A DNA stretch of 64,000 nt. It comes from Chlamydoabsidia padenii. Lineage: Eukaryota > Mucoromycota > Mucoromycetes > Mucorales > Cunninghamellaceae. Every line of letters starts with the position of its first letter. Position 1 is the stretch's first letter. Positions 41,053-53,731 of the stretch are shown piece by piece. The stretch is from contig JAIWND010000009.1 in NCBI GenBank assembly GCA_025330725.1, positions 682,001 to 746,000 on the forward strand, read 5' to 3'. The position numbers and the translations under genes were made by a program. Below the pieces are notes generated by a model. It was not told the origin of the DNA. It saw nothing but the letters and a program-made list of their open reading frames with translations, and did not search any database.

Positions 41053-42099
41053 TTACATATTGATGGGAGTAGCCAGATTATAAGTGACAGCGCCTTGACC
41101 TATTTAAAGAGAGAAAGAGAGAGTAATGAGTGCTTGTTTTACCCATCTGTACTAGTACTTACTATAATCCTGTCCGTCGACACGTTCATAAGCTGGTGGG
41201 AATAGTTTACGCTTGTCTTCATAATACCGATCACGGAAATCACCTTCCTTGGCGGCATTGTTTGTCAGATAAACTGCCCTTCGAGAATAATCCGTTTTGT
41301 TGTCGCCTGATCGATGAGCAAGATAAGCACCAAATATGAGTATCGATCCCTACAAAAGTATCGTAAACCAGAAGAAGAAGAAAAGTTGGCCTTTTTATCA
41401 AGTTTATGTATTCCTTTCGACTACTTACGGGTTTACAATGCACCGGGATCCATTGGTTTTGAGCACACCATTCCAGAGAAATCGAGTTGTCACTTTTTTC
41501 TTGAGGAAGGATCCCACAGTCATAGTTGTTCTTGTGAGAGCCTGGGACCACTTCAAGACATCCATTTTCATTGGTAGTAGGATCAATAGTAAACATCACC
41601 GTCATATGTGAGGATTGACCAAATTGGATAAAAGCCGGTGCGTCTTGGTGGGCAGGGAAGCCTAATGGAGACAGTAGTAATGTTGGTATTCATTATTCTT
41701 TATATACATATTGTCATATTAAGAATACTTACCACCCCCACCTGGTAGTTTGTAGTTGACTTTTTCCTTAAATAAGACATATTCTTCACCATGGAGCTCT
41801 TGCAAGATCTTCAAGAGGCGAGGACTTTTGACATAGGCATTCATACCAGCATGATAAGGTGTAAAGTTTTCCGTTCGACAAAGTTGATCTTGTAGAGTGG
41901 CCTTGTTTGTTTCATAGTACTGCATCCATTTTCCCGTTTCGTGACCCCACTGCTTGAATTCTTCACAGTAATGTTGAAGAGTGGCGTGTTCATCCAGAGA
42001 GAAAAAGTCGTCAATCAGGAGGAAACCTTGGTCATGATACGATTGGCGTTGTTCTTGTGTCAAAGTGTAAGATTGAGAGTTGGGTTGAATGTCCACCAT
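41053..42099 (-). CDS. PhyH-family Fe(II)/2-oxoglutarate dioxygenase, PhnY-like
   Basis: Four exons, 41733-42099, 41429-41661, 41163-41349 and 41053-41099, give 277 residues. The start is QSYTLTQEQRQSYHDQGFLL, the usual PhyH opening. The iron site reads FPAHQDAPAF (His127-x-Asp129) and LIFGAYLAHRSGDN (His212), followed by SRRAVYLTNN with the Arg expected to hold 2-oxoglutarate. The C-terminus is KLFPPAYERVDGQDY then AVTYNLATPI. PhyH enzymes hydroxylate a C-H bond using O2 and 2-oxoglutarate. The divergent neighbour is a PhnZ-like oxygenase, and bacterial PhnY (a PhyH enzyme) hydroxylates 2-aminoethylphosphonate for PhnZ. I therefore infer a phosphonate alpha-hydroxylase. Substrate is not proven by sequence; phytanoyl-CoA hydroxylase is less likely because no peroxisomal targeting signal is seen. 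Confidence 0.85.
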
Positions 42100-42483
42100 A
42101 TATTTGAATTAAATGGTGAAAAGAGAAAATGAAAAAAAGCAGGATTGCATTTTTATATATCCTGAGAAAATTGAAATTGAAATCCCGCCGGTCACCCAGC
42201 TCTCAGTCTGTCAGGTACAACGAAATATCGCACGAAGAGTATGTTACCCTTCATATCCAAACATACACCTTTATTGGCTAGTCTCTTATAAAAATAAAGT
42301 TACCACCGAGAGAGCGGCAGACCGAAATCCCGGCGTTTTGTCTTTTATGCTTTCCTTTTTATCGTTTTTCTCACCCACTAGTTATTTGAAATCCCGATTT
42401 TTCTTTTTTATTCTCTGTGCACTCCACTTTTTAATTTCTGCCTTCTTCCTCTCTTAAATCTCTTTACTAACACTGCTCTTGGA
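42100..42483. promoter_or_regulatory. Shared divergent promoter of the PhyH/PhnZ-like pair, three motif copies
   Basis: Only 384 bp separate the two start codons. Three copies of the recurrent motif, all in the same orientation, lie here: ATTGAAATCCCGC (42176-42188), ACCGAAATCCCGG (42321-42333) and ATTTGAAATCCCGA (42384-42397). This is the densest cluster in the window and suggests co-expression of the pair. Confidence 0.6.
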
Positions 42484-43273
42484 ATGTCAATTGAAGAAAC
42501 TTGTAATCAAATTGTCGATACCGTCTTTACGATTTTGGTTAACGGAAGCAAACAAGACTACATTGGTGAAAGGATCTCACAACTCGAACACTGCTTACAG
42601 GCTGCCTCTCAAGCATCGGACGCGGGTAAAAGAGAGAGAGAGAGAGAAAGAGAAAAGATATGGATAATATGCTAACATTGTACTGATAGGTGCTGATGAC
42701 GAAATCATCCTGGCAGCATTACTACACGATATTGGACAATTCACTACATCACCAGAACAGAAGCCAATGATGTGTGATGCATCCTTGTTGGATGAATTAG
42801 AACCCGGGACTGTAAATGGCGTGAAACAAGTTAGTGTTGGGGTGACTGGACATGAACGAATCGGTGCTGTTTATCTTCGTCAACTTGGCTTCTCTGAAAA
42901 AGTGGTTAGTTTGGTGGAATCCCATGTGCCTGTCAAGCGGTATCTAACAGCAAAGTATCCTGATTATTACAATGGTCTCAGTGGGGCAAGCAAATTGTCA
43001 CTCAAGTATCAAGTAAGTATCAAAACCAAATTTGCCTCTTTTTATATTTTGACTAACACTTACTATTTTTCTTTTCTTTTACGATAGGGTGGCCCATATA
43101 CTCAGGAACAGATAGCTGATTTTGAAAAAGATCCATTATATGCTATCAAGGTACAAATTCGACAATGGGACGACGCTGCCAAAGTGGTAGATCTCAAGGT
43201 ACCTGATCTGGAACACTATCGACACATCGCGGTGAATCATCTATTACAACAAAAAAATCAACTGGTTACTTAG
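42484..43273 (+). CDS. HD-domain mixed-valent diiron oxygenase, PhnZ/TmpB-like
   Basis: Three exons, 42484-42625, 42690-43012 and 43088-43273, give 216 residues. The protein has the PhnZ pattern: Tyr26-x2-Glu29-x6-His36 (YIGERISQLEH), LLHDIG (His60, Asp61), GHERIG (His102), ESHVPVKRYL (His126, Lys130) and IRQWDDAAKV (Arg180, Asp183). Intervals 36-60 (24), 102-126 (24) and 126-183 (57) equal those I recall for PhnZ His34-His58, His80-His104 and His104-Asp161. Ser148 and Lys130 also fall where PhnZ binds the phosphonate. PhnZ cleaves 2-amino-1-hydroxyethylphosphonate with O2 to glycine and phosphate. The loop between LLHDIG and GHERIG is about 20 residues longer than in PhnZ. Activity on that substrate is inferred. 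Confidence 0.87.
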
Positions 43274-51386: not shown

Positions 51387-52014
51387 ATAGAGAGACAAAT
51401 GAGTAGTTGAATTGTGTTATACTATTTGAATAAGTATACAAAAGTATCTGATGAGCAAAAACACAGGTATAGAATGAATGGTAAAAGGGAAAGAGAAGGA
51501 AGAAAAAAAAAAAAAGTAACTGAAAATGCACGGTTATAAATCATTTGACCTCCGACAATTTCAAAGCCCACCAGTTCCATTCCCTACGTTTTTATCAAGG
51601 TACCTATGCTCCACACTATTTTTCATATAACCCAAGATCGACCGAGATTTCATGGTAACCACAAAGCATCACCAAGACCCTATTTTTATTATATAGAAGA
51701 ATGATCATTCCAAACAATAACACAGACAATCAGTGTGTGAGACCCTAACCATCTATTTCGTACCACATGCATCAATGTTTTCCTGTTGATTCCAAAAAGA
51801 CAAAGAGAGAGTGAGAGAATGAATGAGACTGTATGTTTTCCCTTTTTTTTTTTTTATTGATTGTAGCTGTACATATAATGATGATAAAAAAAGATAAGAT
51901 GTATAAAAACAGGTAATATTAATAACTAACTAAAACCTATTTTTATGTCAAATAATGGTGTATGAGAGGGAAGAGAGAGAGAGAGAGAGGAGGAGGAGGG
52001 GGGAGGGGGATAAT
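51387..52014. other. Intergenic: PP4R1-like promoter and EF-Tu 3' flank
   Basis: This 628-bp stretch holds a (GA)n/(GAG)n purine tract at 51970-52010 and a T-run near 51842-51855. A weak motif-like sequence (ACCGAGATTTCATGG near 51631) is not close to consensus. No coding signal. Confidence 0.4.
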
Positions 52015-53731
52015 CTAATCTTGGACCTTGGTGACCACACCGGTACCAACAGTCTTACCACCTTCACGGATAGTGAAACGTTGACCTTCTTCAAGAGCAA
52101 CATCGTGGACCAATTCACATTGCATTTCAACATTGTCACCGGGCATGATAAGCTTATCTTCAGGGTCTTCGGTTCCTTCGGGGTGAGTCAAGCTGACAGT
52201 AACATCAGTGGTACGCACAAACATTTGAGGACGGTAGTTGTTAACAAAAGGAGTGTGTCGGCCACCTTCATCCTTGGTCAAGATATAGAGTTGAGCCATG
52301 AATTTCTTGTGAGATTTGACAGAACCAGGGGCACACATGACTTGACCACGACGGATTTGTTCACGCTTGATACCACGCAACAAGGCACCCATGTTATCAC
52401 CAGCTTCACCACGATCCAATTCCTTGCGGAACATTTCCACACCAGTCAAAGTGGTCTTGATAGTAGGGCCCATACCGACAATTTCGACTTCAGATCCCTT
52501 GGTGATGAAACCACGTTCAACACGACCAGTAGCAACAGTACCACGACCAGAGATAGAGAAGACATCTACAAGGTTATAAAAGCAAAAGATTTAAGATTCC
52601 ATATGTATTTACCCATCCATTCCTATTTATCTATCACCTACCTTCAATGGGCATCAAGAAAGGCTTGTCGAGATCACGGACAGGGTTGGGGATATGAGAA
52701 TCCACAGCAGCCATCAATTCCATAATAGCATTTTCACCAATTTCGGGGTCACGACCTTCGAGAGCGGCCAAAGCGGAACCCTTGATGATAGGAGTAGCTT
52801 CACCATCATAACCATATTCAGAGAGAAGATCGCGCATTTCCATTTCCACGAGTTCCAACATTTCTTCATCATCCACAGCATCGACCTTGTTGATGAATAC
52901 CACCAAGTTTTGCACACCAACTTGACGAGACAACAACAAGTGTTCACGAGTTTGAGGCATTTGACCATCGGTAGCAGAGACGACAATGATAGCGCCATCC
53001 ATTTGAGCAGCACCAGTAATCATGTTCTTGATGTAATCGGCGTGACCGGGACAATCCACGTGAGCGTAATGGCGGTTATCGGTTTCGTATTCGACGTGGG
53101 CAGTGGAGATGGTGATACCACGAGCCTTTTCTTCAGGAGCCTTGTCGATTTGGTTGTAGTCCATGAATTCGGCACCACCTTTAGTGGCCAAGGTCTTGGT
53201 GATGGCTGCAGTCAAAGTGGTCTTACCGTGATCGACGTGACCAATGGTACCAATGTTGACATGAGGTTTACCACGGCTGAACTTGCCACCAGCTTCACTA
53301 GCAAAAGTACGACGACCTATTCAAAAATATAGAGTTGGTTAGCCCTTTCTCAATCCATCCGTCTTTTTAAATCCTACTTACCAAAGTTCAAGAAGCGAGA
53401 AGGAGCAGAGGAGACATAAGCTTGCTTGACCAAGTTGGAGGTCTAAAGGATGAATTAAAAACACAATGAGTACAACATAGTCCACTAATCTTCAAACATA
53501 ACATCCTACTTACGAATTGGTTACCGTGGGTCAAAGCAGTGCGAGCAGACACAAAGGCTATATTCAAAAAAGAGTTTGACAGGTCAGATCAGATCCTTTT
53601 TCATACGTAGTAACAATTTTTTTTTTAAAAACATTACCTGATCTAGAAGACACAGTAGAGGCGCAACGACGAGAAGCGATACGTGTAGCAGGGAGGATAG
53701 CTTTGTTGGTGGCAGTCTTCAACGCAAACAT
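52015..53731 (-). CDS. TUF1: Mitochondrial translation elongation factor Tu
   Basis: Exons 53638-53731, 53514-53557, 53382-53442, 52642-53316 and 52015-52565 give 474 residues. The first 50 or so residues are rich in Ala/Ser/Arg/Thr without acidic residues ([20 protein letters not shown]), a typical mitochondrial presequence. The GTPase follows with [14 protein letters not shown] (P-loop), [15 protein letters not shown] (switch I), [17 protein letters not shown] and GSAL. Domain 2 ([11 protein letters not shown]) and domain 3 ([29 protein letters not shown]) are complete. It delivers aminoacyl-tRNA to mitochondrial ribosomes. The coding sequence is bacterial-like in protein but interrupted by four introns, three of them in the presequence-encoding part. 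Confidence 0.97.

Follow-up and report, generated by a model that had tools for sequence, protein, structure and literature searches.

Oxidative cleavage of the carbon-phosphorus (C-P) bond of phosphonates has been studied mostly in bacteria, where PhnY belongs to the PhyH family. PhnY is dependent on Fe and 2-oxoglutarate, as described in passages of PMC8177086. A fungal PhnY-PhnZ pathway has already been published as PhoF of Fonsecaea multimorphosa, which appears as a special fused case, active on two aminophosphonates, in passages of a review (PMC10574752). In the current analysis we have studied a stretch of 64,000 nucleotides from Chlamydoabsidia padenii (contig JAIWND010000009.1, positions 682,001 to 746,000), referred to below as the window, which encodes a PhnY-like oxygenase of the PhyH family and a PhnZ-like HD-domain protein in two divergent genes. 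Sequence comparisons make it highly probable that the two genes represent the oxidative phosphonate pathway of PhnY and PhnZ in an unfused fungal form.

The divergent gene pair and its products

The gene for the Fe(II)/2-oxoglutarate oxygenase of the PhyH family occupies 41053..42099 on the minus strand and encodes 277 aa in four exons (42099-41733, 41661-41429, 41349-41163 and 41099-41053). Of its 12 in-frame splice combinations, two have three consensus donors; the combination selected matches the deposited protein BC941DRAFT_422153 (P0121) with 100% identity over the full length. The gene for the PhnZ-like HD-domain diiron oxygenase is situated on the plus strand at 42484..43273 and encodes 216 aa in three exons in its splice model (42484-42625, 42690-43012 and 43088-43273); its product is likewise 100% identical over the full length to BC941DRAFT_422156 (P0001). 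Both deposited proteins are named 'hypothetical protein'. The start codons lie 384 bp apart, on either side of a spacer at 42100..42483. The positions, the opposite strands and the presence of introns agree with the original prediction made for this DNA; the two genes have seven exons in all. The C. padenii genome (34.2 Mb in 95 contigs) has one copy of the HD gene and one PhnY-like copy, the next protein match reaching 21.3 bits, and also carries other PhyH-family genes.

The HD protein shares 45% identity with PhnZ at a phmmer E-value of 5.8e-41, which is not a chance match, and its predicted fold is that of PhnZ. All eleven residues singled out in the original prediction (Y26, E29, H36, H60, D61, H102, H126, K130, S148, R180 and D183) are in place. 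The metal ligands H36, H60, D61, H102, H126 and D183 align with H34, H58, D59, H80, H104 and D161 of PhnZ, and R180, K130 and S148 match R158, K108 and S126. We take K108 and S126 of PhnZ to be phosphonate contacts, and by their PhnZ counterparts Lys130, Ser148 and Arg180 presumably lie near the phosphonate. The predicted alignment with PhnZ holds for the listed residues except for one longer loop, but the list had left out His62 of PhnZ, which is Gln64 here; Glu162 of PhnZ is Asp184. Passages of PMC7916636 assign the metal ligands of PhnZ and place H62 at the substrate hydroxyl and R158 and E162 in a proton chain. The YxxE loop (Y26 and E29) is kept in 61 of the 62 aligned rows, the remaining row having a gap, and such a gate and amine loop is described in passages of PMC8177086 as a feature of this type of oxygenase, TmpB included.

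The PhyH protein scores 104.9 bits with the Pfam PhyH family (cut-off 22), and the predicted H127-x-D129...H212 motif does not vary in any of the 54 relatives aligned. By the family rule these three residues are presumably the iron ligands. Also invariant in the 54 relatives are R223, E63, R75, E77, K111, K113, N115 and K117, which are candidates for binding of 2-oxoglutarate or substrate; R223 would be the 2-oxoglutarate arginine. The AlphaFold model has a pLDDT (predicted local distance difference test) of 95.7. Among the 50 matches listed from a fold search with it there are only other PhyH-type enzymes, such as proline hydroxylase, EctD and GriE, and no PhnY structure, and the solved relatives, such as EctD and human PHYH, are distant. 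The methylphosphonate hydroxylase model is the sole curated PhnY-type model that matches. PhnY-like PhyH proteins were also encountered in bdelloid rotifers of the genus Adineta (P0203, P0231 and P0234), where they form a clade of their own, and no rotifer HD partner is present among the named HD matches listed.

Occurrence, pairing and phylogeny

At the position of Gln64, 101 of the 120 closest HD proteins listed (the C. padenii protein counted among them) have Gln, 10 have His and one has Arg; in eight the residue is unreadable by the pattern. The 80 bacterial loci considered (the best 80 of 196 confirmed, among matches listed; one of the two scan patterns allowed Gln or His) have His in 78, Gln in one and Arg in one. 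The latter two, L038 of Sphingobium sp. C100 (Gln) and L082 of Actinoplanes sp. (Arg), are both long branches. In a 95-row set, Gln is found in 46 of the 49 rows from fungi and dictyostelids and His in 44 of the 46 others, three of these others having been chosen for carrying it, and five changes are required on the tree. The bacterial state, His, is also seen in a few fungal HD proteins, namely P0075, P0076, P0077 and P0078 of Coemansia and P0267 of Marasmius fiardii; these are possible reversions.

The two domains also occur fused. The 345 proteins fetched contained 69 two-domain proteins with the HD domain first (66 His, 3 unreadable) and 31 with the PhyH domain first (29 Gln, 2 His), the named ones of the latter all being fungal; these counts are not natural frequencies since the fetched set was drawn to fungal queries. 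The 485-aa PhyH-HD protein P0249 of F. multimorphosa, which is taken as PhoF by its species and architecture and not by accession, has Gln in place of His62. Since PhoF acts on aminophosphonates (passages of PMC10574752), Gln is compatible with the reaction.

Twenty-four of the 120 HD rows listed agree with one of 127 PhyH rows in the length of their longest contig, which is taken as a putative shared contig. Without two contigs shorter than 1 kb, 22 pairs are left, 21 of them named, from 20 species. Circinella umbellata is counted twice, having two separate HD-PhyH pairs (P0014/P0208 and P0030/P0138), each on a putative shared contig. Consecutive locus tags were found for the pair in Apophysomyces ossiformis, Umbelopsis nana, Podila verticillata, Heterostelium album and Acytostelium subglobosum (in steps of ten). 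The original prediction had asked about adjacency in related fungi; the putative shared contigs point to pairing in many early-branching fungi, but it is not universal, Coemansia sp. RSA 2336 being one exception and Collybiopsis confluens another. A PhyH relative of the C. padenii protein (E <=1e-5) is present at 7 of the 80 bacterial loci, two of them fused, within at most 4 kb on either side of the HD gene (less at contig ends), and HD proteins of this family are hence not paired in general. These distributions suggest that the two-gene form occurs widely among Mucoromycota and Zoopagomycota, and also in some slime moulds. Rhizopus is absent among the names in the best 120 HD and best 120 PhyH matches listed, which include many other Mucorales; the pair has possibly been lost there.

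Quick trees of both families were built from uncut row sets. The careful HD tree comprises 85 of 95 rows, leaving out L082, L073, L038 and P0099, which were flagged as long in the quick tree, and by choice L044, L061, L064, L067, L069 and P0267, the last a fungal row with His. The careful PhyH tree comprises 74 of 77 rows (L044, L027 and P0174, flagged as long in the quick tree, were left out). The HD tree separates PhnZ, the HD-PhyH fusions used and all fungal rows from TmpB and 13 other bacterial rows (support 100/100). Fungal and dictyostelid rows form a group in it (98/99), within which the two dictyostelids join the Mucorales and Basidiobolus (100/97). The PhyH tree recovers Mucoromycota (99/92) and Dikarya with PhoF (100/99) and leaves the position of the dictyostelids unsettled. 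When the pairs were concatenated (41 rows), fungi and dictyostelids were grouped together, PhoF-type fusions included (100/100), as were Mucoromycota (99/98), and the ten PhoF-type fusions were intermixed with two unfused Dikarya pairs (100/100).

On the concatenated tree three changes of the fused label are needed, counts that do not separate gain from loss. It is simplest to assume that fungi at first had separate genes and that Dikarya later gave rise to PhyH-HD fusions, separately from the fusions of opposite order in bacteria and marine microbial transcripts. A transfer between fungi and dictyostelids is suggestive only, from these sequence trees: in the approximately unbiased test, fungi as a clade without dictyostelids are not rejected (p 0.185 for HD, p 0.16 for the concatenated set).

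Predicted reaction, substrate and role

In the first step of the predicted pathway, the PhyH protein would hydroxylate 2-aminoethylphosphonate or a close aminophosphonate at the carbon beside the phosphorus, using Fe(II), O2 and 2-oxoglutarate. The hydroxylated product would then bind to the HD protein, whose mixed-valent diiron site would be formed by H36, H60, D61, H102, H126 and D183. Glu29 would be placed at the amine, Tyr26 would act as a gate on the second iron, Lys130, Ser148 and Arg180 would lie near the phosphonate, and Gln64 would stand at the substrate hydroxyl in place of His62 of PhnZ. Cleavage of the C-P bond by the HD protein would release phosphate, and also glycine if the substrate is aminoethylphosphonate. 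By this route the fungus would gain phosphate, with or without glycine, from environmental phosphonates.

Several observations weigh against this reading. Two named PhnZ residues differ, His62 of the substrate contact and Glu162 of the proton chain. The HD protein scores 176.8 bits, under the curated cut-off of TIGR03276 (Phn-HD; 214.6); PhoF (169.7 bits) and two HD-PhyH fusions (186.5 and 192.8) are likewise under it. The PhyH protein reaches 182.7 bits of the 500 required for methylphosphonate hydroxylase, a cut-off that PhoF also fails (172.8), and its kinship with characterised bacterial PhnY is indirect, via PhoF. As regards the pairing, 96 of the 120 HD rows have no contig partner among the matches listed, in many cases because these lists are clustered or limited in length, and the two exceptions named above, Coemansia sp. 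RSA 2336 and Collybiopsis confluens, have the genes on separate contigs. The fungal-dictyostelid group is weak in the careful PhyH tree (84/53; 96 in the quick tree), and both PhyH trees place the metagenome protein P0167 within it. Lastly, fungal use of aminoethylphosphonate is elsewhere ascribed to transaminase and phosphonatase, activities with which Geomyces pannorum grows on the compound according to passages of PMC3905195; fungi can therefore use it, there by another route.

The same chemistry on another substrate, such as methylphosphonate, 3-aminopropylphosphonate or N-methylated forms, to which Gln64 and the longer loop would tune the site, is an unlikely alternative. The only curated PhnY-type match being methylphosphonate hydroxylase, the replacement of His62, which touches the substrate hydroxyl, and the breadth of related enzymes (in passages of PMC10574752, two substrates are cleaved by Gimesia PhnZ and PhoF accepts two aminophosphonates) speak for it. 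However, the score is far below the cut-off, PhoF scores alike though it acts on aminophosphonates, and Glu29, whose PhnZ equivalent contacts the amine, is kept in all but the gapped row. The kinship with PhoF and the retention of Glu29 would favour 2-aminoethylphosphonate or a close aminophosphonate over methylphosphonate.

It is very improbable that the HD protein is a hydrolase or a myo-inositol oxygenase (MIOX)-like enzyme on other substrates, with an unrelated PhyH neighbour and an incidental pairing. Both superfamilies, HD and PhyH, are large and cover diverse functions, and the deposited names are uninformative, but a MIOX or nucleotide hydrolase identity was rejected on the PhnZ match (E 5.8e-41). 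The least probable reading considered is a TmpA/TmpB-type pathway for 2-(trimethylammonio)ethylphosphonate, the methylated analogue of the original prediction: TmpB is the second-nearest solved structure to the HD protein and shares the YxxE loop (passages of PMC8177086), but the HD tree sets the C. padenii protein with PhnZ and opposite TmpB (100/100), its score is 133.4 bits against the TmpB cut-off of 300, and the partner at the one TmpB-type locus compared, that of Ruegeria atlantica (332.4 of 300 bits), is a TauD/GBBH-like gene overlapping the HD start, not a PhyH gene. What stands of the original prediction is hence a probable eukaryotic pair for oxidative C-P cleavage, by homology, residues and tree; the TmpA/TmpB-type substrate and the recycling of 2-aminoethylphosphonate were not upheld.

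The last of these was judged from exon-by-exon searches of the C. padenii genome for other phosphonate genes. For phosphoenolpyruvate (PEP) mutase, PF13714 gave one match at 24.2 bits (cut-off 31.5), which is isocitrate lyase, the control being over the cut-off in 9 of 14 genomes; TIGR02320 gave no match, with its control over the cut-off in 0 of 14 genomes and so no positive control. The phosphonatase model TIGR01422 had one match at 32.5 against 220, a generic HAD hydrolase (control 0 of 14, again no positive control), and no PhnJ of C-P lyase was found in the genome (control 1 of 14). As these searches, which did not extend to PhnW, phosphonoacetate hydrolase and phosphonopyruvate hydrolase, found no PEP mutase, phosphonatase over cut-off or PhnJ, the pair is more likely, as far as the genome sequence tells, to serve in scavenging than in recycling of self-made phosphonate, a reading that was set aside.

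The 384-bp spacer is presumed to be a putative bidirectional promoter, and divergent transcription from it would allow both proteins to be made together. It contains three plus-strand copies of GAAATCCCG, at 42179, 42324 and 42388, which are all the plus-strand copies in the 64-kb window; two minus-strand copies lie elsewhere (19402 and 34660). No CACGTG is present in the spacer. A pair of GAAATCCCG copies 40-70 bases apart was found at a single place genome-wide, this spacer, and therefore no co-regulated gene set emerged. Four neighbouring open reading frames of the window were scanned against Pfam: two had no match, one has a PH domain and one matched HEAT below the cut-off; the remaining neighbours were read by eye. 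Farther away, long plus-strand open reading frames of 256 and 212 aa at 51955-53332 are antisense to a minus-strand gene at 52015-53215, which by eye resembles one for elongation factor Tu; they are probably coding-strand shadows.

Comparison with known systems

PhoF resembles the C. padenii pair in its two domains, its clade in the concatenated tree and its Gln at the His62 position, with identities of 40% (PhyH) and 43% (HD). It differs in being one polypeptide with the PhyH domain first, C. padenii having two genes on opposite strands, and in grouping with Dikarya, the C. padenii pair grouping with Mucoromycota. PhnZ of the uncultured bacterium HF130_AEPn_1 differs in its His62, in the absence of the introns seen here and in the distance from the His-Asp dyad to the next ligand His, which is 20 residues longer in C. 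padenii (H60 to H102) than in PhnZ (H58 to H80). Bacterial PhnY is similar as a PhyH-type oxygenase paired with a PhnZ-like gene. GmPhnY/GmPhnZ of Gimesia maris, acting on methylphosphonate, provide the best curated PhnY-type match, and the C. padenii pair is far below the cut-offs of both models (NF052437, 182.7/500; NF052439, 145.5/300). TmpA/TmpB share an HD-domain oxygenase with the YxxE loop, but the partner at the TmpB-type locus is TauD/GBBH-like and TmpB lies on the opposite side of the HD tree.

Among the matches listed in the open-licence literature, no title dealt with an unfused pair of fungi or dictyostelids or with the Gln signature, and the one paper found on PhoF was the review PMC10574752. 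We offer only as a tentative and somewhat doubtful picture that the linked pair is an old phosphonate-scavenging module of terrestrial fungi, dating from early fungal history, that the PhoF fusion came later in Dikarya, that the pair passed between fungi and dictyostelids, and that Gln for the substrate-touching His marks a distinct PhnZ subtype. If true, early-diverging soil fungi and some slime moulds would be eukaryotes that take part in phosphonate turnover. A derived PhoF fusion and a widespread two-gene form are suggested by the pair, which makes phosphonate mineralisation by soil fungi and dictyostelids directly testable, and the Gln-for-His exchange at the substrate contact gives enzymologists a natural PhnZ variant. 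Compared with the systems described so far, what is new here is a probable unfused fungal pair of the already known PhnY-PhnZ pathway, with Gln64 as a small variant feature.
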